NCBI RefSeq assembly: GCF_933509905.1
Contig: NZ_OW150024.1
Span: 1,104,001-1,168,000, forward strand
Origin: Trichlorobacter ammonificans
Lineage (GTDB): Bacteria; Desulfobacterota; Desulfuromonadia; Geobacterales; Pseudopelobacteraceae
Direction: 5' to 3'
DNA length: 64,000 bases
Part shown: piece by piece, positions 29,120-50,632 of the stretch
Position numbering within the stretch: position 1 is the first letter of the stretch
Layout: every line of letters begins with the position of its first letter
Position numbers and translations under genes: made by a program
Notes under the pieces: generated by a model
Database searches by the model: none
What the model was told of the DNA's origin: nothing
The model's input: the letters and a program-made list of their open reading frames with translations, nothing else

Positions 29120-29228
29120 GCCGTCCCCAAAGCGTTGTGCATGATGACAGAGCCGCGGTATCGTTTCAGTAACTGCGGAAAGCACACGCTTGCGTCGCTT
29201 TTCAGCCCGGAAGGAAAGAGGTTTCTTC

Positions 29229-31532: not shown

Positions 31533-31533
31533 C

Positions 31534-31941
31534 ATGCATTCACTGATCCTGGCTACCGCCATCCGGTTGCTGCTGCCGCTGATGCTGATTTTCTCACTTT
31601 TTCTGCTGCTGCGGGGGCACAACGAACCGGGGGGCGGCTTCGTGGGCGGGTTGGTGGTGGCCGCCGCCTTTGCACTCTATACCCTGGCGCACGGGGAAAA
31701 GGAGGGGCGGCGGATGCTGCGGGTGGAGCCGCTACGGCTGGTGACGGTGGGGTTGGTCACGGCGTTGGTGAGCGGTTTGCTGCCGATGCTGGCGGGATTC
31801 CCTTTTCTGACCGCGCTCTGGAGTTCCGTGCCGGCGCCGGTTATCGGCCATGCCGGTACTCCCCTGCTGTTCGATCTGGGAGTTTATCTGCTGGTGGCCG
31901 GTATGGCACTGCTGATCATTTTTACCCTGATGGAGGAATAA
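31534..31941 (+). CDS. mrpB: Mrp Na+/H+ antiporter subunit B
   Basis: A 135-residue MnhB-domain protein with four hydrophobic segments. It carries the family signature [23 protein letters not shown] and ends TLMEE. It starts one base after the mrpA stop and its stop abuts mrpC, behind GGGAGGGAG. In Mrp complexes this subunit corresponds to part of the complex I membrane arm. Part of the sodium-extruding complex. Confidence 0.9.
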
Positions 31942-32328
31942 ATGGAGCCGGTTCTGGCGGTGGTCATAGGCGGGCTGTACGCTGCGGGCATGTACCTGAT
32001 GGTGCGGCGGAGCATCGTCAAAATGATTTTCGGGCTGGCGCTGCTGGGCAATGCCGCCAACCTGCTGATTTTCACCGTGGGGCGGCTGACCCGGGGCAGG
32101 CCGCCCCACGTCCCTGCGGACGGCATAGTGACGGCGGTGCCGGTTGCCGACCCGGTTCCCCAGGCTCTGATTCTGACCGCCATTGTTATCGGCTTTGGCG
32201 TGCAGGCCTTCGCGCTGGTGCTGATCAAGCGGGTGTACCAGACCGTGGGCAGCGATGACCAGGACGAAATGACCCTGGAAAACCGGGGAGCGTTGGTGAA
32301 TAGTCCGGAACAGAGGGAGGGACGGTGA
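31942..32328 (+). CDS. mrpC: Mrp Na+/H+ antiporter subunit C
   Basis: A 128-residue NuoK-like subunit with three membrane helices ([51 protein letters not shown]). The phrase [17 protein letters not shown] is diagnostic for MnhC/MrpC. Its start directly follows the mrpB stop, and it overlaps the mrpD GTG by 4 bp. Tail after the third helix is acidic and soluble. Confidence 0.92.
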
Positions 32329-33830
32329 AAAACACGATACTGTTTCTACCCCTGCTGATTCCGTTGATCACGGCGGTACTGGGACTGCTGGCCTGGCGAC
32401 GGCACACCCTCCAGCGCCTGCTGGGGGTCGGCAGCACGTCGGCCCTGCTGGCGGTCGGTCTGCTGCTGCTCGCCACGGTGAGGGACGGTACAATCCTGAG
32501 CGTCCAGGCTGGCAACTGGCCGGCTCCCTTCGGCATCACCCTGGCGGCCGACCTGTTCAGCGCTCTCATGGTAACAGCGGCCGGTGGCATGGGGCTGTGC
32601 GTGACCGTCTACTCCCTGGCGGATACCGATACCCATCAGGAATCCCTCGGCTACCATCCCCTGCTGCAGGTGCTGCTCCTGGGGGTCTCCGGATCGTTTC
32701 TCACCGCCGACCTGTTCAATCTCTACGTCTGGTTCGAGGTGATGCTGATCGCCTCCTTCGTGCTGCTGGCCCTGGGAGGGCGCCGTGAGCAGATGGAAGG
32801 AGCCATCAAGTACGTGGCTCTCAACCTGATCGCGTCCGCCTTCTTCCTGGCCGGTATCGGCCTGCTGTACGGCGTGGCCGGCACCCTCAACATGGCCCAC
32901 TTGGCGGTCAAGTTGCGTGACGTTGCCCATACCGGCACCATCCCGGTCATTGCCGCTCTTTTTTTTGCTGCCTTCGGTATCAAGGCGGCAGTCTTTCCGT
33001 TTTACTTCTGGCTGCCCGCCTCCTACCACACTCCGCCGACCGCGGTGACCACCATCTTTTCCGCGCTGCTCTCCAAGGTGGGAATCTACGTGCTGTTCCG
33101 GGTTTTTACCCTGATCTTTGCCCAGGAGGCAGTGGCAGGCCAGGGGGTGCTGCTGACAGCGGCAACGGGCACCATGCTGTTCGGCGCTCTGGGAGCCACG
33201 GCGCAACCCGAACTGCGCCGCATGCTCTCCTTTTGCGTGGTGAGTCAGATCGGCTACCTGCTGCTGGGCCTGGGGATCATGACCCCCCTTGCCTTGGCAG
33301 GCAGCATTTTCTTCATACTGCATATCATTGCAGCCAAATCGGCCCTGTTTCTGGCTACGGGGCTGGTGGTCCGGATCAGCGGCAGCAGTGAAATGGCAGT
33401 CGTGGGGGGGCTGTACCGCCAGCGCCCGCTGCTGGCGCTGCTTTTCCTGCTCCCCGCTCTTTCCGTGGCCGGGCTGCCGCCGTTTTCCGGATTCTGGGGG
33501 AAACTGGCCCTGGTGCAGGCCGCCCTGATTCGTGAGCAGTACCTTGCGGTGACCGCCGCCTTGGGGGTAAGCATCCTGACACTGTTGTACCTGGTCAGGG
33601 CATGGAGTGAGGTCTTCTGGAAGGGGCGTCCCGCCGGCAGCGAAGGGAGTGCCCGCTCCCTGCCGGCGCTGCAGCGCCGGCAGATGGTGGGACCGCTGAC
33701 GGCACTGGTTCTGGTAATGATGCTTATGGGACTGACCGCAGAGCCGTTCATGGTGCTGGCTCGTACGGCAGCCGAGCAGTTGCTGGCACCGGACCGGTAT
33801 ATCACGACTATTCTCGGGGTGACGCCATGA
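32325..33830 (+). CDS. mrpD: Mrp Na+/H+ antiporter subunit D
   Basis: A 501-residue ND2/ND5-like proton-translocating subunit with about 14 membrane segments. Conserved stretches are [51 protein letters not shown] and [21 protein letters not shown], containing the lysine and glutamate residues of the antiporter-like channel. It begins with GTG inside the mrpC stop region (4-bp overlap) and overlaps mrpE by 4 bp. Length is normal for MrpD. Confidence 0.92.
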
Positions 33831-34300
33831 CTGCTTTTCTGGCAAACATTCTGCTTGCCCTTGCCTGGATGGCCCTGACCGGCTCCTTTGGCGCGAGCGG
33901 CTTTTTTACCGGCTTTCTCTTCGGCTTCTGCGTGATCTGGGTCGGCAGGCGGGACCGCGCCAGCGCGGCCTACCGGCAGCGGTTGCTGGCGGTGGCCGGA
34001 TTTATCGTCTTTTTCGTGAAGGAACTGGTAATGGCCAACCTGCGGGTGGCCCATGACGTTCTGACACCGCGTGACTACATGACCCCCGGCATTGTGGCGG
34101 TTCCGCTCGATCTGGAAAGTGATCTGCAGATAACGCTGCTTTCCAACCTGCTCACCCTGACGCCGGGAACGCTGAGTCTGAACCTTTCTGCAGACCGCCG
34201 TACCCTCTATGTTCACGCCATGTACATCGACGATCCGGCACAGATGGTCCGGGAAATCAAGGATGGATTTGAACGGCGGATACGGGAGGTGATCCAGTGA
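33827..34300 (+). CDS. mrpE: Mrp Na+/H+ antiporter subunit E
   Basis: A 157-residue MnhE protein: two or three N-terminal hydrophobic segments (about 1-55), then a soluble domain with VPLDLESDLQITLLSNLLTLTPGTLSLNL, the family hallmark. ATGA overlaps on both sides (with mrpD and mrpF) indicate coupled translation. MrpE is needed for full activity in studied systems, although its exact role is not settled. Confidence 0.92.
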   Translation: MTAFLANILLALAWMALTGSFGASGFFTGFLFGFCVIWVGRRDRASAAYRQRLLAVAGFIVFFVKELVMANLRVAHDVLTPRDYMTPGIVAVPLDLESDLQITLLSNLLTLTPGTLSLNLSADRRTLYVHAMYIDDPAQMVREIKDGFERRIREVIQ

Positions 34301-34572
34301 AACTTACAGCCTATTGCACTCATTTCATCCTGCCGCTGTTGGGGGTGGGGCTGCTGGTGACCTTTATCCGGGTGGTGCGTGGTCCCAGCCTGCCGGATCG
34401 GGTGGTGGCCCTGGACCTGATGGCTACCTTTATCATTGCCATTTCCGCGGTCTATTCCGTGGTCAGCGACGAGCCCTCCTACCTGGATGCGGCGGTGGTG
34501 CTGGCCCTGATCACTTTTCTGGGCACCGTGGCCTTTGCCTACTATCTGCAACGGAGGAGCGGCAATGCGTGA
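34297..34572 (+). CDS. mrpF: Mrp Na+/H+ antiporter subunit F
   Basis: A 91-residue subunit starting with GTG, with three membrane helices and the family core RVVRGPSLPDRVVALDLMA followed by DEPSYLDAAVVLALITFLGT. It overlaps mrpE by 4 bp and mrpG by 8 bp. The pattern is diagnostic for MnhF/MrpF. Confidence 0.9.
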   Translation: MKLTAYCTHFILPLLGVGLLVTFIRVVRGPSLPDRVVALDLMATFIIAISAVYSVVSDEPSYLDAAVVLALITFLGTVAFAYYLQRRSGNA

Positions 34573-34966
34573 CGCACTCATCGCCCTGCTGTTGTTGGGA
34601 GGGGTTTTTTTCGCTCTGGTGGCCGCCATCGGCGTGGTACGGCTCCCCGACATTTACATGCGGCTTTCGGCAGCTTCCAAGGCGTCGACCATGGGTAGCA
34701 GCCTGATCCTGAGTGCCGTAGCCCTTTTTTTTGGCAGTACGGTCGTCACCGGAAAGGTGGTGGCCATCATCGCCTTTACCCTGCTCACCGCACCGGTGGC
34801 AGCCCATATGCTGGGACGGGCCGCGTATTTCAGCGGTGAACCGCTCTGGGACAAAAGCATACGGGATGAGCTGGATGGAGCGGGCGAGTGGCGAAAGAGT
34901 GGAACGCCGCCCCGGGAGCAGGGGGAGAGTGCCACGCCGGCGGAAGAAAAGGAGAAGGGGGACTGA
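34565..34966 (+). CDS. mrpG: Mrp Na+/H+ antiporter subunit G
   Basis: A 133-residue PhaG/MnhG/MrpG subunit with three membrane segments and the core GVVRLPDIYMRLSAASKAST and LTAPVAAHMLGRAAY. The hydrophilic, charged tail (about 100-133, rich in E, K and G) is longer than usual. The ATG at 34565 overlaps mrpF by 8 bp. It ends the operon; a hairpin follows before the convergent malic enzyme gene. Confidence 0.9.
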   Translation: MRDALIALLLLGGVFFALVAAIGVVRLPDIYMRLSAASKASTMGSSLILSAVALFFGSTVVTGKVVAIIAFTLLTAPVAAHMLGRAAYFSGEPLWDKSIRDELDGAGEWRKSGTPPREQGESATPAEEKEKGD

Positions 34967-37734: not shown

Positions 37735-38082
37735 TCAGGCGACGATGTCGGGTGGAATGAAAATATCGCGATAAACGTCGGAAAGGGCGAGGGAGGTTTT
37801 CCGGCCGCCGTTCCTCACGACCTGGGGGCCGTACGCCGGTAGTGGGCTGCCGGACAGCAGAAAGGTGGTGTAATCGACGAAGGACTGCTTGGGGGGCTTG
37901 AAATTCTGCAATTCCGGAAACTGTTGCTCTTCTTCGCTGCCCACGGTGATGGTCTGCGTAAGCTCGTGCCCCGACGTCGCAGCTTTCATGCCGTCCTGCA
38001 GCAGGCCGGGCAGGGTCAGGTGCAGCAGGGTGGCCAGCATGCAGAGTGCGGCGGCTATGGCGAAGGAACGGCACTGGGGCAT
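37735..38082 (-). CDS. small exported or membrane-anchored protein of unknown function
   Basis: A 115-residue product if begun at the ATG at 38082 (MPQCRSFAIAAALCMLATLL). The N-terminal hydrophobic segment acts as a signal peptide or anchor. The rest is soluble, with PELQNFKPPKQSFVDYTTF and DVYRDIFIPPDIVA. The frame extends to 38163 but the added residues lack protein character. No ribosome binding site of note and no recognised family. It is separated by about 150 bp from purE, so a cotranscript is uncertain. Confidence 0.55.
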   Translation of the reverse strand: MPQCRSFAIAAALCMLATLLHLTLPGLLQDGMKAATSGHELTQTITVGSEEEQQFPELQNFKPPKQSFVDYTTFLLSGSPLPAYGPQVVRNGGRKTSLALSDVYRDIFIPPDIVA

Positions 38083-38229
38083 GGGGAGTGGTCCGGGATC
38101 GCAGTTGTCCGAGGCTTGTTGCTCTGTGCAGCTATTTAACGATAAACGACGTCCGGCTGTCAAGGCAGTATACGGTTGTGCTTCCGGAGTGCTAGCTGGG
38201 CGCCGCGGGCACCGCCGCTGGTGCCTGCC

Positions 38230-38257
38230 TTGACATCGGCGCTTTCTGTTCTATAAG
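38230..38257 (+). promoter_or_regulatory. sigma-70 promoter of the GH15 gene
   Basis: TTGACA (38230-38235), 16-bp spacer, TATAAG (38252-38257), near consensus. Transcription would start near 38264, giving a leader of about 138 bases before the ATG. Confidence 0.65.
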
Positions 38258-38333
38258 GATAGAGCAAAGACGATTCTGGTAAAACAGAGAGTGCAGGGGG
38301 CGCCAGCAATGGCTCTGGCGACCCGCAATCAAT

Positions 38334-38389
38334 ACGGATGGTTCTCAACGGGGAGACTGCTCCCCGTTCCTGTTTGCGAAACCATCCGT
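38334..38389 (+). promoter_or_regulatory. nested double hairpin in the leader of the GH15 gene
   Basis: An outer 10-bp perfect stem (ACGGATGGTT, 38334-38343, with AACCATCCGT, 38380-38389) encloses an inner 9-bp perfect stem (AACGGGGAG, 38347-38355, with CTCCCCGTT, 38360-38368). The outer stem ends one base before the GGAGG ribosome binding site. No T tract follows, so it is not a normal terminator; translational control is more likely. Confidence 0.55.
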
Positions 38390-38401
38390 GGGAGGAGCAT
38401 G

Positions 38402-40192
38402 ATGCGTACCAGTCTTGACTTGGGGCTTATTGGTAACGGCGCCGTCGGCGCCCTGATTGACCGGCAGGGGGAGATCGTCTGGTGCTGCCTGCCGCGCTTC
38501 GACGGCGACCCGATGTTCTGCTCGCTGCTCAAGGAACACACCAACCATGACGGTTTCGGCTATTGCGGTATCGAGCTGGTGGAGCAGATCGCCACGGAGC
38601 AGCAGTACCTGCCCAATACCGCCGTGCTGGTGACCAAGCTCAGCGATGCTCACGGCGCAGAGGTGGAGGTGACCGACTTCGCTCCCCGCTTCCGCCAGTT
38701 CGGCCGGATGTTCACGCCGGTAATGCTGGTCCGGCGAATCCGCCGTCTGCGGGGCTCCCCCCGAATCCGCCTGGCGGTGCGGCCGGCGTCGGATTACGGC
38801 CGCGAACGCTGCCCCGTCACCTACGGCAGCCACCATGTCCGTTACCTCTCCCCCGGCTGGGTGCTGCGCCTGACCACCGACGCCTCCATCACCATGCTGC
38901 TGGAGGAACGTCCCTTCTTTCTGGAGGAGGAGATCACCCTCATCTTCGGTGCCGACGAAACCATCCCCACGGCCATCGGCGACCTGGCCCGGCGTTTTCA
39001 GGATGAAACCGTGCATTACTGGCACGACTGGGTGCGGGATCTGGGCATCCCCTTCGAGTGGCAGGACGAAGTGATCCGGGCCGCCATCACCCTGAAGCTG
39101 AACACCTGCGACGATACGGGCGCCATCATCGCCGCCATGACCACCTCCATCCCGGAAGCGGCGCATACGGTGCGCAACTGGGATTACCGCTTCTGCTGGC
39201 TGCGGGACTCTTACTTCGTGGTGAATGCCCTGAACCGTCTGGGGGCCACCAAGTCCATGGAGCGCTACCTGGGGTACCTAACCAATATTTCCGCCGGGGC
39301 GCCGGGGGGGCGCTTGCAGCCGGTCTACGCCATTAACGGCGCGGCACGACTTGAGGAGCGGATCGTCGACACCCTGTCCGGCTACCGCGGCATGGGGCCG
39401 GTGCGGGTGGGGAACCAGGCCTTCGAGCAGGTGCAGCACGATGTCTACGGCGCCGCCATCCTGGCGGTGACCCACGTGTTTTTCGACCGCCGCCTGTTGC
39501 GCTGCGGCGACCGCACCCTGTTCCACCGCCTGGAGTCCCTGGGGGAGACCGCCGTGCAGGTGTTCGACCAGCCCGATGCCGGGCTGTGGGAGCTGCGGGG
39601 TACCGCCCGGGTACACACCTTTTCCAGCGTCATGTGCTGGGCCGCCTGCGACCGTCTGGCCCTGATCGCCGCCAAGCTGGGGCTGGGCGACCGGCAGGGG
39701 TACTGGCGGGACCATGCCGACAGCATCTACACCGAAATTTACCGGCGGGGCTGGAACGAGGAAAAGCAATCCTTTGTCGCCTCCTTTGACGGCGACTCCC
39801 TGGACGCCAGCCTGCTCCTGCTGCACGACGTCGGTTTTCTCTCGGCGGACGATCCCTGTTTCCAGTCCACGGTCGCCGCCATTGAGCGGGAACTGAAGCG
39901 GGGAGACTACGTGTACCGCTACGTGGAGGCGGACGATTTTGGGGAGCCGGAGAACGCCTTTATCGTCTGTACCTTCTGGTATATCCACGCCCTGGCGGCG
40001 CTGGGCCGCCACGACGAGGCCCGGGCGCTCTTCGAAAACCTGCTGGCGCGGCGCAACCACCTGGGGCTGTTGGCGGAGCATATTGACCCGGTCACCGGCG
40101 AGCAGTGGGGGAATTTCGTGCAGACCTACAGCATGGTGGGACTGATCAGCTCTGCCATTCGCCTGAGTAAACGCTGGGATGCGGCGTTCTGA
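38402..40192 (+). CDS. GH15 glucoamylase/trehalase-like glycoside hydrolase
   Basis: A 596-residue protein with the trehalase-like N-terminal beta domain (GLIGNGAVGALIDRQGEIVW; CLPRFDGDPMFCSLL) and an (alpha/alpha)6 GH15 catalytic domain. WDYRFCWLRDSYFVVNALN and RGWNEEKQSFVASFDG hold the expected substrate and catalytic acid residues. No signal peptide, so it acts in the cytosol. Some bacterial GH15 proteins hydrolyse trehalose. With otsA-like and otsB genes 3-5 kb downstream, trehalose turnover is a credible role, maltooligosaccharides the alternative. Two adjacent ATGs follow GGAGG; the second (38402) has better spacing. Confidence 0.85.
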   Translation: MRTSLDLGLIGNGAVGALIDRQGEIVWCCLPRFDGDPMFCSLLKEHTNHDGFGYCGIELVEQIATEQQYLPNTAVLVTKLSDAHGAEVEVTDFAPRFRQFGRMFTPVMLVRRIRRLRGSPRIRLAVRPASDYGRERCPVTYGSHHVRYLSPGWVLRLTTDASITMLLEERPFFLEEEITLIFGADETIPTAIGDLARRFQDETVHYWHDWVRDLGIPFEWQDEVIRAAITLKLNTCDDTGAIIAAMTTSIPEAAHTVRNWDYRFCWLRDSYFVVNALNRLGATKSMERYLGYLTNISAGAPGGRLQPVYAINGAARLEERIVDTLSGYRGMGPVRVGNQAFEQVQHDVYGAAILAVTHVFFDRRLLRCGDRTLFHRLESLGETAVQVFDQPDAGLWELRGTARVHTFSSVMCWAACDRLALIAAKLGLGDRQGYWRDHADSIYTEIYRRGWNEEKQSFVASFDGDSLDASLLLLHDVGFLSADDPCFQSTVAAIERELKRGDYVYRYVEADDFGEPENAFIVCTFWYIHALAALGRHDEARALFENLLARRNHLGLLAEHIDPVTGEQWGNFVQTYSMVGLISSAIRLSKRWDAAF

Positions 40193-40226
40193 CGCTGGTG
40201 CCGTAGCGTCCCGCCGCTCTCAGGAC

Positions 40227-40257
40227 TTGACCTCCGGCTTTATTATTGGCATAAATT
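40227..40257 (+). promoter_or_regulatory. candidate promoter of the marR gene
   Basis: TTGACC (40227-40232) with an AT-rich -10 in the stretch CATAAATT (40250-40257). The first operator palindrome begins within the -10, consistent with autorepression. Confidence 0.45.
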
Positions 40258-40284
40258 AGCAATGCTAACTATTAGTGTAGCTAA
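40256..40284. promoter_or_regulatory. tandem MarR operator-like palindromes
   Basis: TTAGCAATGCTAA (40256-40268) is a perfect 6-bp inverted repeat with one central base. TTAGTGTAGCTAA (40272-40284) is a near copy sharing the TTAG-N5-CTAA frame, with centres 16 bp apart. They sit between the -10 and the start of the marR gene, the typical autoregulatory position. Confidence 0.6.
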
Positions 40285-40316
40285 GTAATTTTCAGGTGCT
40301 GACGGCGGGAGTGACC

Positions 40317-40778
40317 ATGCAGAAGGATGCAGCAACAATCATGGAAGTATTCGACAATGTGCGGCGGGTCATCCAGGCGATTTCCGAGTATTCGAAAGCA
40401 GCCGAGCATACCACCGGCCTGACCGGTTCCCAGCTGTGGGCGCTGAAACTGTTGACGGCGGCGCCGGTGCGGGTTTCCGAGCTGGCGCGGCTCATGTCCC
40501 TGCGTCCGCCCACCGTGGTGGGCATCTTGGACAGGCTGGAAGCAAAGGGTCTGCTCACACGCACGGTTTCGAAAGAGGACCGCAGGGTTGTAGAGGTTGT
40601 ACTCACGGAGCAGGGGAGAGCGCTGGTGGCCGGGGCGCCGGAGGTGGCCCAGACCCTGCTGGTGAAGGGGCTGGCCGAACTGTCCGAGGAACAGTTTTTC
40701 CATGTTGAAGAGGGGATGCGCCTGATGGTGGGGATGCTAGATGCCGGGCACCTCGTGCCTCAGCCGCTGCACAGGTGA
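40317..40778 (+). CDS. MarR family transcriptional regulator
   Basis: A 153-residue winged-helix regulator. The core (about 30-120) includes GLTGSQLWALKLL, VSELARLMSLRPPTVVGILDRLEAKGLL as HTH, and SKEDRRVVEVVLTEQGRAL as the wing with the DR pair. I prefer the ATG at 40317 (MQKDAATIMEV) with GGGAGTGA upstream to the one at 40296. Operator-like repeats overlap its promoter. It precedes the MscS gene by 35-73 bp and may regulate the downstream envelope stress genes. No ligand can be proposed. Confidence 0.88.
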   Translation: MQKDAATIMEVFDNVRRVIQAISEYSKAAEHTTGLTGSQLWALKLLTAAPVRVSELARLMSLRPPTVVGILDRLEAKGLLTRTVSKEDRRVVEVVLTEQGRALVAGAPEVAQTLLVKGLAELSEEQFFHVEEGMRLMVGMLDAGHLVPQPLHR

Positions 40779-40812
40779 GCCGGCCGGACTCGGGACGGTG
40801 AGAGAGGAGGAG

Positions 40813-40860
40813 ATGATGAGAATACTGCGATACCTGCTTCGGGAAAACCGGTGCATCTGA
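40813..40860 (+). CDS. 15-codon leader peptide or frameshifted 5' end of the mscS-like gene
   Basis: AGAGGAGGAG is followed at once by ATGATG and a short frame reading MMRILRYLLRENRCI, ending TGA at 40858-40860. This is the best ribosome binding site in the region, and the short frame overlaps the GTG start (40851) of the MscS gene by 10 bases. Either it is a coupling peptide, or the channel gene truly began here and a one-base change shifted the frame. Confidence 0.4.
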   Translation: MMRILRYLLRENRCI

Positions 40861-41957
40861 GGGCATTCGGCACTGCCATCGCTGAAGCGCCGGCACTGGT
40901 CGCTTCGCTGCTGACCCTGGGACTGGCGCTTCTGCTGGGGCTGCTGGGCTATCTGCTCCTGTTTAAGGTGCTGTTCCGTCTGGCTGTGCATTCCGACAGC
41001 TCCCTGCAGAAGAACCTGCTGCAACGCTGGCGCCCCCCGGCAAAGCTGTTGCTGCCGCTGGTTGCGGTGCTGCTTGCCCAGCCGTCGTTTCAGTTCCCCC
41101 CCGGCATCTCCGAACTACTGCGCCACTTGGGCAGCATGGCGTTGATTGCCGGCATTGCCTGGTTGATGGCCTCCACCATCCTGGGGCTGCGGGACCTGGT
41201 CCTGCAGCGCTACGATGTGAGCGACAGCGACAACCTCAAGGCCCGGACCATTTCCACCCAGGTGACCATGCTGGTGCGGATTACCATCGTGATCGTCATC
41301 GTCCTGGCCGGGGCAACCATGCTGATGACCTTTGAAACGGTGCGTCAGGTGGGGGTGAGCCTGCTGGCCTCAGCCGGTATTGCCGGCATCATCATCGGCT
41401 TTGCGGCCCAGCGCAGCTTGGCGGCCCTGCTGGCAGGAATCCAGATCGCCATTACCCAGCCGATTCGCCTTGACGATGTGGTGATCGTGGAGGGCGAATG
41501 GGGGCGGGTCGAGGAGATCACGCTGACCTACGTGGTGGTGCGCATCTGGGATTTACGGCGCCTGGTGCTGCCGATCACCTATTTTCTGGAAAAGCCGTTC
41601 CAGAACTGGACCCGGGCGTCGGCCGACCTGCTGGGCACCGTGTTCCTGCACTGCGATTACCGGGTGCCGGTGGCGGAGGTGCGGGCCGAACTGGAAAGGA
41701 TCCTTGCCCGGACCGAGCTCTGGGACGGCAAGGTCTGCGGCTTGGTGGTGTTCGATGCAACCGACAGGACTGTTGTCCTGCGTGCCATGGTCAGCGCGCC
41801 CAATTCGGGAGCGGCCTGGGATCTGCGCTGCCATGTCCGCGAGAAGCTAATCGAGTTTCTGCAGCGCGACCATCCGGAGTGCCTGCCGCGGCTGCGAACC
41901 GAACTGGAGCCGTTTCCTGCCGCGGTGCCGTCGACGGAGGGACCGGCAGCACCGTGA
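40851..41957 (+). CDS. MscS family small-conductance mechanosensitive channel
   Basis: A 368-residue channel protein with about four N-terminal membrane helices, then the pore helix and upper vestibule (LASAGIAGIIIGFAAQRSLAALLAGIQIAITQPIRLDDVV). The MscS beta domain has GEWGRVEEITLTYVVVRIWDLRRLVLPITYF, followed by an alpha/beta C-terminal domain. It would release solutes on hypo-osmotic shock, which fits the neighbouring trehalose genes. The start is uncertain: GTG at 40851 lacks a good ribosome binding site and overlaps a short upstream frame with an excellent one. Confidence 0.85.
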   Translation: MHLRAFGTAIAEAPALVASLLTLGLALLLGLLGYLLLFKVLFRLAVHSDSSLQKNLLQRWRPPAKLLLPLVAVLLAQPSFQFPPGISELLRHLGSMALIAGIAWLMASTILGLRDLVLQRYDVSDSDNLKARTISTQVTMLVRITIVIVIVLAGATMLMTFETVRQVGVSLLASAGIAGIIIGFAAQRSLAALLAGIQIAITQPIRLDDVVIVEGEWGRVEEITLTYVVVRIWDLRRLVLPITYFLEKPFQNWTRASADLLGTVFLHCDYRVPVAEVRAELERILARTELWDGKVCGLVVFDATDRTVVLRAMVSAPNSGAAWDLRCHVREKLIEFLQRDHPECLPRLRTELEPFPAAVPSTEGPAAP

Positions 41958-42078
41958 CCCGGACCGCAGCGCAGGGGACGGATAGCAGCCATCGACCATG
42001 GCTGCGATTCCCCGGCCGGAGGCGCGGGGACAAGACGGGTGCGGAGCCCGTACCGCACCGGAGAAGGAGGAGCGTGTC

Positions 42079-42966
42079 ATGTTCAAGAGAATCATTCTGT
42101 TCCTGATTACCAACCTGGCCATTCTGTTTGTACTGAGTTTCGTGGCGAACCTGCTGGGGATCGGTCCGATGCTGACCCAGCAGGGGCTCAACCTGGGCAG
42201 CCTGATCGCCTTTGCCGCCGTGTTCGGCTTCGGCGGTTCGCTGATTTCGCTGGCCCTCTCCAAGTGGACCGCCAAACGGCTGACCGGGGCGCAGGTGATC
42301 ACCACTCCGGGCAATGAAGTGGAGACCTGGCTGCTGGAAGTGGTACGGCGCCAGTCCCTGAAGGCCGGCATCGGCATGCCGGAGGTGGCGGTCTACGATG
42401 CCCCGGACGTCAACGCCTTTGCCACCGGCATGCGGCGGGATAACGCCCTGGTGGCGGTCAGTACCGGACTGCTGCGGACCATGGACCGCAATGAAGCCGA
42501 GGCGGTGCTGGCCCACGAGGTGAGCCATGTGGCCAACGGCGACATGGTGACCCTGGCCCTGATCCAGGGGGTGGTCAACACCTTCGTGATCGTGGCCTCG
42601 CGGGTAGTGGGCTACCTGGTGGACCGGGTGGTTTTCAGGACCGAGCGGGGGCACGGTCCCGGCTTTTTCATCACCTCCCTGGTGGCGCAGCTGGTGTTCG
42701 GCATTCTGGCCAGCATCATCGTCTGCTGGTTCAGCCGGCAGCGGGAGTTCAGGGCCGATGCCGGTTCGGCGGCCCTGGCAGGGCGCGACAAAATGATCGC
42801 GGCTCTGCAGAAACTGCGGCTTACCGCCGGGCAGCCCCATCTGCCGGACCAGGTGGCGGCCTTCGGCATATCCGGCACCAGCAACGGTGGCCTGATGAAG
42901 CTGTTCATGACCCATCCGCCGCTGGAAGAACGGATCGAGGCGTTGCGCCGGAACCGGGGCCTCTGA
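42079..42966 (+). CDS. htpX: HtpX membrane zinc metalloprotease
   Basis: A 295-residue M48B protease with four membrane segments (two N-terminal, two after the active site). The zinc motif HEVSH lies at 146-150 and the third ligand in [15 protein letters not shown]; substrate-side [15 protein letters not shown] is near the C-terminus. HtpX degrades damaged inner-membrane proteins under envelope stress. ATG at 42079 follows AAGGAGGAG. It sits 122 bp after mscS and abuts the OtsA fusion gene, so it may be cotranscribed with it. Confidence 0.92.
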
Positions 42967-45240
42967 ATGCGTCAGTCATCTGCCGGCCTGTCGTTCCGTT
43001 CGCTGCACCTTTCCCTCCGTTTCGTGCTGCCGCTGGCCGTTGCCCTGGGGTTGCTGGCCTACGGGGTGGTGCCGCTGATCGACGGCCTGATGCTGCGCTG
43101 GTCGGTGCGGGACATGGATATCCGTTCCCGCCTGATCAGCAGTACCCTGCAAGATCCGTTGAGCGAACTGATGCGGAAAGGGGAGCGCCAGCGCATCAGC
43201 AGCCTGCTCGTGCGGGTCAACCAGGACGAGCGGCTGCTGGCCCTGGGGGTATGCGACAACGAGAGCCGTCTGCTCTACAAGACGCCGGCCTTTCCGGCGG
43301 CTCTTTCCTGCCGCCAGCCGGAGCACAGCGGCAGTGACCCGGAACATCTGATCCGTCTGCCCCAGGGACCGGTGCATGTGGCGGTCAGTCCCATCGGTGA
43401 TGAAAGCGGCAGTGTCGGCTCCCTGGTGCTGATTCATGACATGAGCTTCATGGAGCGCCGCAGTGCCGATACCCGCCAGTATGTGATCCTGCTGTTCGCG
43501 GTGCTGGGAGTGGTGATCTCCCTGATCACCGTGTTCGTGGCCCACCTGAGCTGGCGGGGCTGGATGGAGGGGGTGCGGGCCATGTTGCGGGGGGAGGGGA
43601 TTCTACGCCCCTTTGCCGGCCAGCAGGCGGTCACGAGTTCCGAATTGCAGCCGCTGGTGGGGGATCTTCGGGCACTGTTGCGAACGCTGGACGCGGAGCG
43701 GCGTTTTGCCGACGACGCCACCATTTTCTGGAGCGCGGATACGCTCCGCAAGCTGCTGCACAAGGAGCTGAGCGGCGACCAAGTGCTGGTGGTTTCCAAC
43801 CGGGAGCCGTATATTCACTCCCAGGAAGGGGAGACCATCAGGGTACAGCGGCCCGCCAGCGGCCTGGTGACGGCGGTGGAGCCGGTGATGAAGGCGTGTT
43901 CCGGCACCTGGATCGCCCACGGCAGCGGCAGCGCCGACCGCCAGACGGTGGATGCCCATGACCGGGTGGGCGTGCCGCCGGAAAAACCGGCCTACACCTT
44001 GCGCCGGATCTGGCTGAGCAGGGAGGAGGAGAGCGGCTACTATTACGGCTTTGCCAACGAAGGGTTGTGGCCTCTCTGTCATATCGCCCATGTGCGGCCG
44101 GTGTTCCGCTCCAATGACTGGCAGCAGTACGTGGCCATCAACCGGCGCTTTGCCGATGCCGTGGTCAGGGAGGCCAAGACCGATGATCCGGTGGTGCTGG
44201 TACAGGATTATCACCTGGCACTGCTGCCCGGCTATATCCGGGCGGCGCTGCCCAAGGCAACGGTGATCACCTTTTGGCATATCCCCTGGCCCAACCCGGA
44301 ATCCTTCGGCATCTGCCCCTGGCGGGAAGAGGTGCTGCAGGGGATGCTGGGCAGCACCATTCTGGGCTTCCATACCCCGTTCCATTGCAAGAACTTCATC
44401 GAGACCGTGGATCGCTACCTGGAAACCAGGATTGAGCACGAGTCCTCCACCATTTCTCATAACGGCAAACTGACCATGGTGGAAAGCTACCCGATTTCCA
44501 TTCAATGGCCTTCACCCTGGCAGGAAAGCCAAGCCTCTGTTGAGGAGTGCGCCCGGGAAATCCGCAGCAGCCTGGGAATCGGGCCGGACTGTCTGGTGGG
44601 GATCGGGGTGGACCGGCTGGATTATACCAAGGGGATTCTGGAGCGCTTCTGGGCGGTGGAACGGATGCTTGAGCTGCACCCGGAGCTGGTGGGGCGCTTC
44701 ACGTTCATCCAGATCGCCGCCCCCACCCGCACGGCCCTGGACGACTACCAGAATTTCGATGCCCAGGTGCGGGCGCTGGCGGCGCGGATCAATAAACGGT
44801 TCGCCACCGCCTCCTGGCAGCCGCTCGTGCTGCGGATCGAACACCACGAACCGGAGGAGGTGAACCGCTACTACCGGGCCGCTGATGTCTGCATGGTGAC
44901 CAGTCTGCACGACGGCATGAACCTGGTGGCCAAGGAGTACGTGGCGGCCCGTGACGACGAGCGGGGGGCGCTGGTCTTGAGCCAGTTCACCGGGGCGGCC
45001 CATGAACTGCACGAGGCGCTGCTGGTGAACCCGTATCATATCGAACAGACCGCCGAGGCGCTGCATGAGGCGTTGGTCATGCCGGAGTACGAACAGCGGG
45101 AGCGGATGCGCAGCATGCGTGCCCTGGTACGCGACTTCAACGTCTATCGCTGGGCCGGCCGGATGTTGCTGGATGCGGCCCGGATACGACAGCGCGAGAA
45201 ACTGGCGGCCCGTATCGGCGGCCTGGCCAGGGTGAGGTGA
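42967..45240 (+). CDS. otsA: trehalose-6-phosphate synthase fused to an N-terminal membrane sensor-like module
   Basis: A 757-residue protein with two parts. Residues 1-270 hold a membrane helix (about 17-38), a presumed periplasmic domain (39-171, with [14 protein letters not shown] as in sensor proteins), a second helix (172-193) and a HAMP-like linker. Residues 272-735 are a GT20 trehalose-phosphate synthase with [49 protein letters not shown] and [15 protein letters not shown]. The enzyme joins UDP-glucose (or ADP-/GDP-glucose) and glucose 6-phosphate. Ordinary OtsA (about 460-480 residues) has no such extension. The start directly follows the htpX stop, and the end overlaps otsB by 4 bp. 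Confidence 0.88.
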
Positions 45241-46016
45241 GCGTGATCGGTCTCTTCAGTGCTGAGGGCCGCAGCGCGCTGCGCGCTTTCGTCAACGCGC
45301 ACACCCTTTTTGCCTTCGATCTGGACGGCACGCTGGTGCCGATCGTGGCCAATCCGGCCGATATCCGCATTGACACCACAGTGCAGGATGGCATGGTTGT
45401 GCTTACCTCGTTGGCTGCCACTGCCGTCATTACTGGCCGTTCCCGCAGCGACGCCGCAGCCCGCCTCGGTTTCACCCCGCGCTACCTCGTGGGGAACCAC
45501 GGAGCCGAGGGGGTGCCGGGACAGGAAGCGGAAAGCCGCGAGCTGCTCCGGACGGTCGCGGCCTGGGAACGGCAACTGCTCACCCTGCTCCCCCCCCAAC
45601 GCCGGGCGGGAATCCTGCTGGAACGCAAGGGGTACAGTCTGTCGCTCCACTATCGTCACGCTCCGGAGCCCCGCTCCGCCCACGCCGCCTTGCTGGCGGC
45701 CATTACCGCTCTTACCCCTCCTCCCCGGCGAGTGGCGGGGAAGTGTGTGGAAAACCTGCTGCCCCTGGGAGCACCCCACAAGGGGGAGGCGCTGGTGCGG
45801 CTTCTGGACGTTTCCGGCTGCGTCAACGCCTTCTTCATCGGCGACGATGAAACCGACGAGGATGTCTTTCGTCTGAACGATCCACGAATATTCCCTGTCT
45901 GCGTGGGAGCGGACCGTGCCACTGCCGCCCGCTACCTGCTGGAGCGTCAGGAGGATATGTCCCTGCTGCTGAACGCTCTGGTGACGCTCCTGCGAGACGG
46001 AGCGGTTGAAATGTAA
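45237..46016 (+). CDS. otsB: trehalose-6-phosphate phosphatase
   Basis: A 259-residue HAD-superfamily phosphatase that removes phosphate from trehalose 6-phosphate. The HAD nucleophile motif FDLDGTLVP has Asp28; RSRSDAAARL and GNHGAE correspond to OtsB, and GDDETDEDVF is motif III. It starts at GTG 45237, overlapping the synthase stop by 4 bp, so the two enzymes are translationally coupled. Length and motifs are normal. It completes the OtsAB pathway. Confidence 0.92.
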   Translation: MSVIGLFSAEGRSALRAFVNAHTLFAFDLDGTLVPIVANPADIRIDTTVQDGMVVLTSLAATAVITGRSRSDAAARLGFTPRYLVGNHGAEGVPGQEAESRELLRTVAAWERQLLTLLPPQRRAGILLERKGYSLSLHYRHAPEPRSAHAALLAAITALTPPPRRVAGKCVENLLPLGAPHKGEALVRLLDVSGCVNAFFIGDDETDEDVFRLNDPRIFPVCVGADRATAARYLLERQEDMSLLLNALVTLLRDGAVEM

Positions 46017-46102
46017 CCGCTATCGTGTAGTATCTGTCCGCACAACGGGGAGTGCCGCTCCGCTGGTACGTTCCGTTCAATTCATGCTGCACGGGGTTTC
46101 CA

Positions 46103-47542
46103 ATGGCCGATCTGAATGTCCTGTTTCAACCGGTGGGGCAGTACTGTCATCGCGAGGTGGTCACCTGTTCGCCCGACGATCCGCTGGTTGAGGCGGTGTC
46201 GGTCATGCGGCGACACAATATCTCCAGCCTGGTGGTCTGCCGCGATGGACGTCCCATGGGGATGATCAGCGATCGTGACCTGCGGAACAAGGTGGTGGCC
46301 CAGGGGCTCGATCCCAAGCAGTTGACCATTGCCGACATCATGCACACTCCCCTGATCACCATCGGCGAGCAGGAGTTTCTTTTCGAGGCGCTGCACCGTA
46401 TCTCCCGCAACGGCATTCACCGGCTGGTGGTGCTTGGTTCCCAGGGGGGACTGGCCGGCATCATCACCGATTCGGACATTCTCCGGCTACAGGGCAATTC
46501 GCCGCAGCGCCTGGTGCGCACCATCGAAGAGGCCCGCAGCGTGGATTCCCTGCGCCGTCTCCATCAGCGGGTGCAGGGGCTGGTGCTGCATCTGATCGGC
46601 ACCGGCGTGCGGGTGCAGGAGCTGGTTCGCCTGATCGCCCACTTGAATGACCAGGTGCTGGTCCGCCTGATCGATCTGTTGCTGGAAGAGCAGTATGCCG
46701 ACCTGGCCGGTCGTTTTGCGTTTCTGGTGCTGGGAAGCGAGGGACGGGGAGAGCAGACCCTGACCACCGACCAGGACAATGCTCTGGTGTATGCCGACGA
46801 CCTGACCCCGGCGGAGCAGCAGCGAATCATCGAATTTTCGGAAACACTGATTCAGGCGATCATCGCCATCGGCATCCCTCCCTGTTCCGGCGGCATCATG
46901 GCCAACAACCCCCTCTGGCGGCATAGCCTGAAAGAATGGAAGGGAGTCATGGATGGCTGGTTTGCCGTACCGACGCCGGAGAATATCCTGAAAGTGGGTA
47001 TGATTACCGACCTGCGCGCCCTGCGGGGAAACCTGTCCCTGGAGCAGGCCATGAAGGATCATATCGCCGGCAGACTGAAGGGAAACGAGGCGTACCTGGG
47101 ACACCTGACCAGCAACGTGCTGCGCTTTGCCGTGCCCCTGGGGTGGTTCGGTCGCATCAGGACCGAGGCCGGCGAGGATCGAGAAGGGCGGCTGGACCTG
47201 AAAAAGGCCGGCATTTTCGCCATCACTGAAGGGGTGAAAATTCTGGCCATTTCCGAAGGGGGACAAGTCAACGGCACCGTCCCCCGCATCGAACGGCTGG
47301 CCGAAATCGGCGTTCTCGAGCGCCGGGAAGCCGACGACCTGATTGCAACCTACCATACCTTGGTCTACTTCCGATTGCGTACCCAGGTTGAGGCGATCCG
47401 GGAGGGGCGGACGCCGGACAACCGGATTGCCCTCGCCCGTCTGAACCGGATGGAGAAGGGGCGGCTGCGGACAGCCCTGGAAGGGGTCCGTTCCTTCCAG
47501 GGGTTGCTGCAGCGCCGCTTCCGTCTGGGGCAAATCCTCTAG
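46103..47542 (+). CDS. CBS-pair / DUF294 nucleotidyltransferase-like protein (copy 2)
   Basis: A 479-residue relative of the protein at 13460-14917. Two CBS domains lie at about 10-130 (SVMRRHNISSLVVCRDGRPM; LHRISRNGIHRLVVLG). The nucleotidyltransferase-like site reads VLGSEGRGEQTLTTDQDNAL, followed by MANNPLWRHSLKEWKGVMDG and a helical C-terminus. I chose the ATG at 46103 (MADLNVLF); the earlier Met at 46052 gives an unrelated leader. It is on the same strand as the DUF485-symporter pair beyond a 775-bp gap. Role presumed in carboxylate uptake control or nucleotide signalling. Confidence 0.85.
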   Translation: MADLNVLFQPVGQYCHREVVTCSPDDPLVEAVSVMRRHNISSLVVCRDGRPMGMISDRDLRNKVVAQGLDPKQLTIADIMHTPLITIGEQEFLFEALHRISRNGIHRLVVLGSQGGLAGIITDSDILRLQGNSPQRLVRTIEEARSVDSLRRLHQRVQGLVLHLIGTGVRVQELVRLIAHLNDQVLVRLIDLLLEEQYADLAGRFAFLVLGSEGRGEQTLTTDQDNALVYADDLTPAEQQRIIEFSETLIQAIIAIGIPPCSGGIMANNPLWRHSLKEWKGVMDGWFAVPTPENILKVGMITDLRALRGNLSLEQAMKDHIAGRLKGNEAYLGHLTSNVLRFAVPLGWFGRIRTEAGEDREGRLDLKKAGIFAITEGVKILAISEGGQVNGTVPRIERLAEIGVLERREADDLIATYHTLVYFRLRTQVEAIREGRTPDNRIALARLNRMEKGRLRTALEGVRSFQGLLQRRFRLGQIL

Positions 47543-48317
47543 CCGGAAGACCACGCACCCACTTCCTCCGCAGGGAAGCTTCATCCTGCAGTGCACTTCA
47601 CATCTCCCTGCCCCGTCCCGGATATGCTGGTCCCCCCTTCCTGCGTTGACGACCTGGTTTTCTCAGTAACTCCGGTTCATTTTCGTGTTGTTATCACGTG
47701 CTGTCCCCCTCCGTTTCCCGTCAGCGCCGGGGCTGTTTCCGGGGTTTTTCGAAGCCGGTTTTATTTCATACGGCACAATGTTCTATTATTGCCGCTTTTT
47801 GGGCGTACAGACAGCGGGTTCATACGGTGTGCTCTGCGGGCTGGCCGGCGCCGGAATGAACGGCTGTGTTAGGCGTGCTCGTCCGGCGTGCCGTGGCATA
47901 TGGGTATGGAATCGTAATGCGCGGAGACATTGTTGTCGGCAAAAACAGTATTTATACTAGCTGGTTGAAAAAAATAAATTTTTCGTGAATAAAAAAATAA
48001 AACGATTATTTAAATTGCTAATATTACGAAAAAAAAACGTTTGATAAAAAAATGACGCCAGTTGAAACTTCATTTGACAAAACAACTCTGTTTCGTATAC
48101 AAGACTGGTGCCGTTGCCCCGGAGACCGTCAGGTGCGTGTCTGTTGGTCCGGGCTGAGACAGCGTGGTGGTTGCCCGTGCGGGCACTTGATAACATATGT
48201 GAAATCACTTTGAGGAAAGGGGGCTTGAAAAACCGGAGGCAGGCGATCCGCGGCATGGTTATGTCGTTGAGATCCGGAGAGTAGCGAGAAACTTTGTGAA
48301 AGGAGTACACAAACATT
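47543..48317. other. 775-bp intergenic region before the third symporter operon
   Basis: No ORF with protein character was found. The first 300 bases have mixed composition; 47930-48110 is strongly AT-rich and holds a good sigma-70 promoter. The following 210 bases are presumably a long untranslated leader, ending in GTGAAAGGAG before the DUF485 start. No known riboswitch core was recognised in it. Confidence 0.55.
48074..48101 (+). promoter_or_regulatory. sigma-70 promoter of the DUF485-actP operon
   Basis: TTGACA (48074-48079), 16-bp spacer, TATACA (48096-48101). The predicted start near 48108 leaves a leader of about 210 bases. Confidence 0.6.
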
Positions 48318-48626
48318 ATGTCAGAACAAGCAATCAACTGGAGTTCGATAGCGCAGAATCCCAAGTTTGTCGAACTGCACCGCAAAAAGACCGCCTTCCT
48401 GTTCGGCTGGTGGATTTTCTCCAGCATCTATTACTTCCTGCTGCCGATTGGTGCCGCCTACGCGCCGGGGCTGTTCAAGGTACAGGTACTCGGCCGGATC
48501 AACGTCGGCTATCTGTTCGCCCTGTCCCAGTTCTTCGTGTCCTGGGGGATCGCCATGTACTATGCCCATGTTGCCAACAAAGATTTTGACCGTCTGACCA
48601 GGGAACTGGTCGCCGACGTCCAGTAG
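48318..48626 (+). CDS. DUF485 small membrane protein
   Basis: A 102-residue DUF485 protein: N-terminal NPKFVELHRKKTAFLFGWWI, two membrane segments (about 29-50 and 66-88) and a short tail. DUF485 (YjcH-like) proteins are encoded directly upstream of ActP-type acetate permeases, as here with an 11-bp gap. The likely role is accessory subunit or stabiliser of the permease. AAAGGAG precedes the start. It takes the place of DUF4212 in the other two symporter cassettes. Confidence 0.9.
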   Translation: MSEQAINWSSIAQNPKFVELHRKKTAFLFGWWIFSSIYYFLLPIGAAYAPGLFKVQVLGRINVGYLFALSQFFVSWGIAMYYAHVANKDFDRLTRELVADVQ

Positions 48627-48637
48627 GAGGTGCATTC

Positions 48638-50632
48638 GTGAAGAAACTGCTTGTAACCCTCGGCTGCCTGCTCACCTTTGCCGGTGTTGTCTGCGCTGAA
48701 CCCGCCAAGACGCCGGCTGCACCGGACGCGGCACCCGCCGCTGCCGCCCCTGCACCCGCTGCCGCAGCCCCCGCCGCTGCCGTTGCCCCGGCTGACGCCA
48801 AGCCGGCTACCCCGGCCAAGACGGTTGTGGACTCCAAGGAAAAACTGAAGGCCAACCCCAAGGTCACCATTCCGATCTTCCTGATGATCATCGGCGCCAC
48901 CATGGCCGTGGTGGTCTGGTCGGCAAAAAAGACCAAGTCGGCAGCCGACTTCTACACCGCCGGTGGCGGCATCACCGGTACCCAGAACGGCTGGGCCATT
49001 GCCGGCGACTATATGTCCGCCGCCTCCTTCCTGGGGATTTCCGGCATGATCTCCCTGTACGGTTACGACGGCTTCATGTACTCGGTGGGCTGGCTGGTGG
49101 CTTACATCACCGTGCTCCTGATCGTAGCCGAACCCTGCCGTAACGCCGGCAAGTACACCCTGGGCGACATTCTGGCCTTCCGGACCGAGCCCAAGCCGGT
49201 GCGCGCCGTTGCCGCCATTTCGGTTGTCGCCGTTTCCACCTTCTACCTGACCGCCCAGATGGTTGGTGCCGGCAAGCTGATGCAGCTGCTGCTGGGCATC
49301 AACTACAAGGTGGCCGTTATCGGCGTCGGTATCCTGATGGTTGGCTACGTGGTGTTCGGCGGCATGACCGCTACCACCTGGGTACAGATCATCAAAGCCG
49401 GCCTGCTGATGACCGGTGCCGGTCTGCTGGCGATTCTGGTGGGCCTCAAGTCCGGTATGAGCCCGTTCCAGTTCTTCAACGACATCGCCACCAACGAGAA
49501 GATCATCGATCACGTCAAATTGCTGCCGATTTATCTGAGAGAGGTTGAGGCGGGTACGGCCACCATGGATGCCGGCCAGCGCTTCCTGGAGCCCGGCCTG
49601 TTCCTGACCAACCCGCTTGACCAGATCTCCCTGGGTATGGCCCTGGTGCTGGGCACCGCCGGCATGCCGCACATCCTGATGCGCTTCTTCACCGTGCCGA
49701 CTGCTCAGGAAGCCCGCAAGTCGGTTATCGTGGCCATGTTCATCATCGGCTCCTTCTACATCCTGACCACCCTGCTGGGCTTTGGCGCGGCCATTCACCT
49801 TTCCCCGCAAGGGATCAAGGCGGTTGACGCCGGCGGCAACATGGCTGCCATGATGCTGGCCAAGGCGCTGGGCGGCGACATCTCGCCGTTCATCGGCGAC
49901 CTGCTGCTGGCCTTCCTCTGCGCCGTCGCCTTCGCCACCATCCTGGCGGTGGTCTCCGGTCTGGTGCTGGCAGCCTCCGCTGCTATTGCCCACGACATCT
50001 ACGTGAACGTGATTAAGGACGGCCACGCCGACCAGCATGAGCAGGTCATGGCTGCCCGGATCACCTCCTTCGTGGTCGGTGCCTGCGGTATTGCCATCGG
50101 TATTGCTGCCGAAAAGCAGAACGTTGCTCACTTGGTGGCCCTGGCCTTCGCTGTGGCCTCCTCCGGTAACCTGCCGGTGGTGGTGCTCTCGCTCTTCTGG
50201 AAAAAGTTCAACACCGCCGGCGTCATTGCCGGTCTGCTGGTGGGTACCATCGCCTCCATCGGTCTGGTGATGGTCTCCCCCAACATGACCTATCCGGATG
50301 TCGTTGCCAATAACGCGAAGAAGGCTTACACCAAGCTTGAGGCCGATATTTCCGCCGGCAAGATTGCTCCGGAAGCAATGGAAAAGACTCTGAAGACGAT
50401 TGACGACAAGAAGGCTGAGGAAGCCAAGAACCGTGGCGGTAAGTCCATGGTCGGTCTCTCCGCGCCGCTCTTCACCCTGAAGAACCCCGGTATTCTCTCC
50501 ATTCCGCTGGGCTTCATCGCCGCCATTGTGGCCGCGCTGGCTTTCCCCAGCCGTCGGGCAGAAGAGATGTGGGACGAGATCTACGTCCGTCAGAACACCG
50601 GCATCGGCATGGCTAAGGCCATTGACCACTAA
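48638..50632 (+). CDS. actP: ActP-like cation:acetate symporter
   Basis: A 664-residue SSS-family symporter. It begins at GTG (behind AGGAGG) with a cleavable-looking signal peptide and then a periplasmic Ala/Pro-rich tract (about 22-65), longer than in E. coli ActP (549 residues in all). ActP-like core segments include ADFYTAGGGITGTQNGWAIAG, YMSAASFLGISGMISLYGYDG and GTAGMPHILMRFFTVP. A soluble, lysine-rich insertion near residues 560-600 precedes the last helix. It lacks the EF-hand-like loop of the other two. Acetate uptake with Na+ or H+ is the family role; a tRNA gene follows. Confidence 0.88.
   Translation: MKKLLVTLGCLLTFAGVVCAEPAKTPAAPDAAPAAAAPAPAAAAPAAAVAPADAKPATPAKTVVDSKEKLKANPKVTIPIFLMIIGATMAVVVWSAKKTKSAADFYTAGGGITGTQNGWAIAGDYMSAASFLGISGMISLYGYDGFMYSVGWLVAYITVLLIVAEPCRNAGKYTLGDILAFRTEPKPVRAVAAISVVAVSTFYLTAQMVGAGKLMQLLLGINYKVAVIGVGILMVGYVVFGGMTATTWVQIIKAGLLMTGAGLLAILVGLKSGMSPFQFFNDIATNEKIIDHVKLLPIYLREVEAGTATMDAGQRFLEPGLFLTNPLDQISLGMALVLGTAGMPHILMRFFTVPTAQEARKSVIVAMFIIGSFYILTTLLGFGAAIHLSPQGIKAVDAGGNMAAMMLAKALGGDISPFIGDLLLAFLCAVAFATILAVVSGLVLAASAAIAHDIYVNVIKDGHADQHEQVMAARITSFVVGACGIAIGIAAEKQNVAHLVALAFAVASSGNLPVVVLSLFWKKFNTAGVIAGLLVGTIASIGLVMVSPNMTYPDVVANNAKKAYTKLEADISAGKIAPEAMEKTLKTIDDKKAEEAKNRGGKSMVGLSAPLFTLKNPGILSIPLGFIAAIVAALAFPSRRAEEMWDEIYVRQNTGIGMAKAIDH

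Follow-up and report, generated by a model that had tools for sequence, protein, structure and literature searches.

Accounts of how bacteria control trehalose synthesis usually place that control in gene expression or cytosolic effectors. Trehalose is an osmoprotectant that guards cells from drying and salt, and the OtsA-type enzymes of E. coli and Mycobacterium that initiate its formation are soluble. Membrane proteins in which a sensor drives a cytosolic enzyme directly are known among HAMP-linked adenylate cyclases, diguanylate cyclases and PP2C phosphatases; these act on signalling molecules or phosphates, whereas the protein considered here is predicted to serve compatible-solute biosynthesis. 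OtsA-OtsB fusions (PRK14501 type) belong to the same pathway and have a related GT20 core, but the four included here, which were labelled from some 240 additional residues at the C-terminus and not by domain search, have no transmembrane segment (TM), and the phosphatase of our locus is a separate, overlapping gene.

The window, that is the whole stretch of 64,000 nucleotides analysed, comes from the complete 3.06 Mb genome of Trichlorobacter ammonificans, which contains a single GT20 match. The protein encoded at this locus resembles OtsA of E. coli and the Mycobacterium trehalose-6-phosphate synthase (TPS, 5jio) in its GT20 fold and active-site residues. Unlike OtsA, it carries a membrane sensor of about 270 residues in front and scores under the OtsA equivalog cut-off. 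With the sensor kinases WalK and CitA it shares the order TM, extracellular domain, TM and the fold of the sensor domain, but its output is a glycosyltransferase and not a kinase. A preliminary description had proposed the plan TM, periplasmic domain of about 130 residues, TM, HAMP-like linker and GT20 enzyme; hydropathy, structural modelling and PF00982 all agree with it. That description knew of no precedent described by experiment, and we found no description of a receptor with GT20 output in open-access full text, a scope that excludes most subscription journals. We favour, with moderate confidence, the reading that a single protein acts here as a transmembrane receptor whose output is metabolic. 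The features discussed below are, in window coordinates:

42967-45240, + strand: sensor-GT20 fusion open reading frame, 757 aa
43018-43092, + strand: TM1, about residues 18-42 (hydropathy 2.33; within model helix 10-71)
43093-43476, + strand: periplasmic Cache/PAS-like sensor domain as modelled, residues 43-170, with Cys96 and Cys115 (pLDDT mostly >90 here; WalK/CitA fold matches)
43477-43551, + strand: TM2, about residues 171-195 (hydropathy 3.13; D158-T188 spacing 30 in 86/86)
43552-43722, + strand: putative degenerate HAMP, with AS1 196-207, connector 208-227 and AS2 228-252 (model helices, hhalign, lengths)
43729-43770, + strand: joint helix W255-L268 entering GT20 (W255 and L260 kept in 86/86; W255-S277 spacing 22 in 86/86)
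43780-45174, + strand: GT20 catalytic domain, residues 272-736 (PF00982; active-site residues)
45237-46016, + strand: trehalose-6-phosphate phosphatase, its start overlapping the synthase stop (PF02358; TIGR00685 90.8 bits, cut-off 68.05)
38291-40192, + strand: GH15 family, trehalase-like (PF00723 and PF19291 TREH_N)
40851-41957, + strand: MscS-type channel upstream of the synthase, taken as context (PF00924)
41998-42966, + strand: M48 membrane peptidase immediately before the synthase, context only (PF01435)

Architecture of the sensor-GT20 protein

The fusion frame opens with ATG. Kyte-Doolittle means over 19 residues reach 2.33 in TM1 (residues 20-38) and 3.13 in TM2 (173-191), and the best value past residue 205 of the window protein is 1.10. 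Both hydrophobic segments were found in 86/86 aligned proteins, the window's included, seven of which (L161-L167) had been chosen after their two TMs were seen and the rest by sequence match. Only two of the 86 show a hydropathy of 1.6 or more after the two TMs.

At the C-terminal end, PF00982 covers residues 272-736 with 405 bits against a cut-off of 32.5. GT20 is the sole Pfam family in the protein at E 0.001, and the domain search found no kinase or MCP signalling domain; together with the fold matches given below, this bears out the earlier proposal of a receptor-type N-terminus placed on a GT20 enzyme instead of a kinase or chemoreceptor output. Foldseek aligned the enzyme with Mycobacterium TPS 5jio (E 4.2e-32, 35% identity). 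The active site of E. coli OtsA, which we take to consist of R9, Y76, W85, D130, H154, R262, K267, R300, D361 and E369 in mature numbering, is identical in the window protein at all ten positions. Nine of these residues are kept in 86/86 proteins; the Trp is kept in 85, the remaining protein having a gap there. The GT20 domain is apparently catalytically competent.

A fold search with a full-length model (27 rows, pLDDT 70.6) returned GT20 enzymes for all 50 matches listed, and because the enzyme swamped the search, the N-terminus was modelled alone. The resulting monomer model of residues 1-271 (57-row alignment, mean pLDDT 86.7), a prediction that the preliminary description had proposed as a check, consists of a helix through TM1 (10-71), an alpha/beta core (74-158), a helix through TM2 (160-207), a low-confidence connector loop, and helices 228-250 and 257-268 leading into GT20. 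Its top solved match in Foldseek is a WalK model (E 2.4e-6), the sole one below 0.001, and the second is CitA (E 0.0021). VIA-align gave Z 12.5 with the full WalK model, 11.9 with the WalK crystal structure (119 residues, rmsd 2.5), 10.8 with CitA 2j80 (110 residues, rmsd 3.2) and 8.8-10.2 with several chemoreceptor sensors, at identities of just 8-18% over the aligned residues; Z values of this size may mirror a common arrangement. Judged by the fold of the model, the periplasmic domain is of the Cache or extracellular PAS-like type.

Pfam found no Cache, HAMP or other family in window residues 1-271 at E 1, and for residues 1-275 at E up to 10 it gave a chance match to LapA_dom only (E 8.4). 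Adeno_E3B matches in 14 members (57 N-termini scanned at E 1) were dismissed as an effect of TM composition. A sister branch of 13 proteins (L161-L167, L180-L185) has the same plan, with about 140 residues between the TMs and about 90 between TM2 and GT20; among the ten compared, identity to the window protein is 19-26% in the N-terminus and 50-54% in GT20. Within this branch L181 passes dCache_3 (26.0 bits, cut-off 25.7) and L180 matches sCache_3_2 under the cut-off (E 1.8e-5). Cache and HAMP are recognisable in the family only by way of the sister branch and the folds, and not from the window's own sequence.

Conservation of the full length in relatives and purifying selection on residues 10-252 (dN/dS 0.11-0.33, 7 pairs) indicate that the N-terminal extension is more than a product of chance. 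Mean pairwise identity is 0.49 in the periplasmic domain, 0.62 in TM2 plus HAMP and 0.75 in GT20, the periplasmic part being the least conserved. Distances in the periplasmic domain correlate with those in the enzyme across the window's branch (Mantel r 0.785; 0/999 permutations as high), so that we see no sign of sensor exchange within it; such co-divergence is expected for any fused protein. Cys96 and Cys115 (window 43252-43311) occur together in 71/73 proteins of the window's branch and in 0/13 sister proteins. Both are lost in L088, one in L066, and both in L005, which lies outside the 73. This pattern points to a disulphide with a structural role or to a redox element.

The linker, its fixed lengths and the reduced forms

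The segment between TM2 and the joint helix of the window protein has no match to PF00672 at E 1, and the best score among the relatives (L162, 15.3 bits) lies below that family's cut-off of 25 bits. When hhalign compared TM2-to-joint segments with 30 HAMP domains from the genome to which the window belongs, the sister branch reached 96% (E 4.6e-9), the window's branch 25% (E 7.7e-4, colinear) and the two branches pooled 73%, against 1.0% and 0.3% for two control segments. The monomer model places two helices and a connector at the HAMP position. We read the linker as a probable HAMP by descent that has become degenerate in the window's branch; the term HAMP-like used in the preliminary description suits it; the sister branch aligns with genuine HAMPs, and the window's copy would be a worn version.

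Measured between conserved anchors, the path from the membrane to the enzyme is nearly constant in length. From D158 to T188 there are 30 residues and from W255 to S277 there are 22, both in 86/86 proteins, and E244-W255 measures 11 in 83/86. The two helices of the linker differ between branches: T188-W199 measures 11 in the window's branch (73/73 proteins) but 18 in the sister branch (13/13), and P229-E244 measures 15 (73/73) and 22 (13/13) respectively. These counts omit eight of the 79 loci described below, which encode fewer than 735 aa (L053, L060, L068, L070, L074, L075, L102, L109). Each HAMP helix thus differs by seven residues, or one heptad, a figure that hinges on correct alignment of the anchor residues (T188, W199 and W255 invariant, P229 Pro in 85/86, E244 Glu in 81/86). 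A change of one heptad in both helices would keep the coiled-coil register. Lengths vary in the HAMP connector (W199-P229) and in the periplasmic stretch (R89-D158). The N-terminus of one protein, L035, has 316 residues, with about 45 extra in the periplasmic stretch. We take the near-constant lengths between TM2 and GT20 as a probable mark of selection on the geometry of the helices, a constraint that matters to a signal relay and is unnecessary for an anchor.

Ten relatives (L209, L210, L236-L243) have one TM and neither the periplasmic domain nor HAMP. Two of them, 605-606 residues long, come from Aminobacter plasmids, the nearest plasmid records, where the annotation reads just trehalose-6-phosphate synthase; the others come from eight genomes of a Pseudomonadota draw. 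In this one-TM set the GT20 domains are 57-59% identical to the window's, and the linkers run 36-44 residues from the TM to the conserved Trp, a crude measure taken from the first charged residue past the TM. Since these relatives do without the periplasmic domain, it would be inessential to the enzyme, and any regulation that it provides would be dispensable in that lineage. Three soluble relatives (L216, L217, L220) begin at the joint helix, which points to a natural boundary near residue 253. Two further proteins of the Pseudomonadota draw (L244, L245) have about 250 HAD-like-looking residues before a GT20 domain with a YHRLP start motif.

In a GT20 tree of 76 rows, built by a quick method with SH-aLRT support only, one group (98) holds 40 sensor proteins, nine one-TM proteins and L168, which bears no label in the tree since its contig stops within the HAMP region; L239, though examined, is not among the rows. 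The one-TM rows are nested within the sensor group (100), and beside them stand three sensor forms from the Pseudomonadota draw (99). Soluble rows and those fused to a phosphatase fall outside the group. The tree carries a long-branch warning for the distant soluble rows, and its four outgroup rows do not form one side of a branch. With the root placed outside the group, this topology fits a single gain of the sensor and a single loss of the periplasmic half and HAMP.

The main rival to a receptor-enzyme, which we hold to be unlikely and yet the most serious of the alternatives, is that the N-terminus is a plain membrane anchor, keeping the synthase at the inner membrane and passing no signal. 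The nested one-TM branch, which manages with a short linker and lacks both HAMP and periplasmic domain, speaks for it, as does the low conservation of the periplasmic domain relative to the other parts. Against it, an anchor has no need of a conserved sensor fold, fixed helix lengths or matched seven-residue changes, and linker length varies in the one-TM forms, by the crude measure used, where the HAMP helices of the sensor forms are constant.

Distribution and gene partners

The window protein matches in 29/57 related genomes, its own included, and in 25/45 of the good ones. In 25 of the other 28 the match is near end-to-end and in one piece at 71-87% identity; in G007, G014 and G022 it is in pieces. 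A profile of the N-terminal module was used in a pattern-based scan, non-exhaustive, of one genome per species in 84,980 species, where 141 stretches matched a pattern and 79 loci were confirmed. GT20 directly follows the module in all 79. The fusion is one open frame in 77 loci, of at least 735 residues in 71 and, in six more, shorter or running off the contig; in L068 and L070, both on draft contigs, the frame is broken between sensor and GT20. The loci include, judged by record title, Geobacter, Geomonas, Pelotalea, Smithella, Noviherbaspirillum, Herminiimonas, Derxia, Amantichitinum, Geothrix and Bdellovibrionales.

Copies in oddly labelled MAGs (Verrucomicrobia, Cloacimonadota, Spirochaetia, Peribacteraceae) may be binning errors. 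Four such copies (L053, L060, L064 and L083, in MAGs labelled Verrucomicrobia, Spirochaetia and Cloacimonadota) are Geobacter-like, lie on contigs of 3-6 kb and are probably misbinned.

Across a 297-genome spread of the window's phylum, a 27-row profile found the sensor module in 18 genomes, and reading long GT20 frames that the profile had missed added seven (G328, G144, G176, G147, G228, G251, G112). The sensor fusion is thus present in at least 25/297 genomes, the reading having covered 20 long GT20 frames and not all GT20 genes; GT20 exceeds its cut-off in 120/297. Around a Noviherbaspirillum genome, 299 genomes of its phylum were drawn; GT20 is present in 81 of them and the sensor module in four, the centre genome included (E 1.3e-35 or better). 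Weak matches of the A3 profile in this Pseudomonadota draw (G351, G426, G516, G549 and G575; E 2e-5 to 7e-4) were left uncounted, and the matched stretch of G575 contains no GT20. Elsewhere in the window's genome nothing matches the sensor module at E 10. In the plasmid collection 359 records match the protein, none with 80% or more of it covered at one place.

Among the 79 loci, a phosphatase homologue is present in 65 and a GH15 homologue in 47, both counts being depressed by short contigs. According to a passage in one published account, GH15 trehalase, phosphatase and synthase stand in one cluster in Ramlibacter tataouinensis (PMC3164672). Clustering, with a Pfam scan of a single representative per cluster, shows further recurrent neighbours: DUF389 (17 loci), ClC (12), GH13 (12), ROK (12) and NhaA (11), and a MarR homologue lies near the synthase in 13. 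At L037:4386-5978 a DUF389 membrane protein is encoded between GH15 and synthase.

Within the window, promoter-like (1) and terminator-like (9) sites in 38000-48700 occur at shuffled rates (means 2.3 and 7.7), and scanning the whole window for tRNAs and Rfam families yielded tRNA-Val alone. A CBS-DUF294 protein (window 46052-47542) comes after the phosphatase; a homologue lies near the synthase in 2/79 loci, on its downstream side in L032 and on its upstream side in L065. Upstream of the synthase, on the same strand and with minus-strand ORFs between, runs an Mrp/Mnh-type Na+/H+ antiporter set (window 29190-34963) with Proton_antipo_M, MNHE, MrpF, MnhG and MbhD/E domains. MscS homologues are found in just 3/79 loci and M48 homologues in 3/79, adjoining the synthase in none; as each recurs so rarely, the idea that these two neighbours tie the locus to osmotic shock was set aside and they are treated as context.

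These neighbourhoods bear on the nature of the signal. The preliminary description had proposed that external osmolarity or membrane tension is sensed; this is a special case of a receptor-enzyme, its probability overlapping with that of the general reading, and we regard it as rather doubtful. The role of trehalose itself, the MscS gene and Mrp-type run within the window, and the NhaA-type and ClC-type genes (raw counts of 11/79 and 12/79 loci) would suit it. The rarity of MscS homologues near the synthase elsewhere argues against it, and so do the solved structures nearest in fold: these are sensor domains of kinases, and some, such as CitA, bind ligands.

The gene partners also bear on the product. 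It is quite improbable, in our estimate, that the sensor controls the enzyme as proposed and that the enzyme makes something other than trehalose-6-phosphate. The NCBIfam scores leave room for this: the protein reaches 416.6 with OtsA TIGR02400 (cut-off 564.85) and is for that reason filed as GT20 and not as an OtsA equivalog, and it is likewise below the cut-offs of PRK14501 (481.1, cut-off 634) and of glucosylglycerol-phosphate synthase (322.9, cut-off 569). The OtsA and OtsA-OtsB models nevertheless score well above the glucosylglycerol-phosphate one, the ten active-site residues are those of E. coli OtsA, and the neighbours are a trehalose-6-phosphate phosphatase above its cut-off and a trehalase-like GH15 enzyme. 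Trehalose-6-phosphate is the product that we infer for the fusion enzyme.

Least probable of all is that an internal start at Met206 yields a soluble enzyme as a second product: a Shine-Dalgarno-like stretch does precede ATG codon 206 (window 43582), inside the HAMP region, and sensor-less relatives starting near residue 253 exist, but the codons of Glu201-Gly202 produce such a stretch regardless of selection, Met206 is absent in four of the five rows compared (L090, L092, L094, L097, L101), and residues 239-272, where the preliminary description had considered a separate start near residue 250, contain no in-frame ATG, GTG or TTG.

Proposed mechanism and significance

The receptor-enzyme reading gains from the two TMs, the sensor-kinase-like fold, the Cache and HAMP matches of the sister branch, the nearly indel-free path to the enzyme, purifying selection, the intact active site and the 79/79 linkage of module and GT20. 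Counted against it are the degenerate HAMP of the window protein and the presence of the gene in only 29/57 related genomes. As we picture it, the protein would form a dimer, as suggested by the HAMP ancestry, whose periplasmic Cache/PAS-like domain would sense a small molecule or the state of the envelope. TM2 would then shift the two HAMP-derived helices, and the fixed joint helix W255-L268 would hand this change on to GT20, raising or lowering the rate of trehalose-6-phosphate formation. The phosphatase encoded next would convert the product to trehalose, and the GH15 trehalase-like enzyme would take trehalose away. Synthesis would thus be set at the membrane without new transcription.

More tentatively, at somewhat under even chances, we propose that the family constitutes an undescribed class of transmembrane receptor that arose once and spread widely among bacteria, its periplasmic Cache-type sensor acting directly via HAMP to switch the synthesis of a compatible solute. 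The family offers natural controls in its full-sensor, clear-HAMP sister, one-TM and soluble forms, and whether a receptor can directly drive a biosynthetic enzyme becomes a question testable with one purified protein. If the proposal is true, cells would adjust trehalose soon after an outside signal with no kinase, second messenger or transcription involved, and a receptor with a biosynthetic glycosyltransferase as its output would represent a short, self-contained route from the envelope to metabolism.
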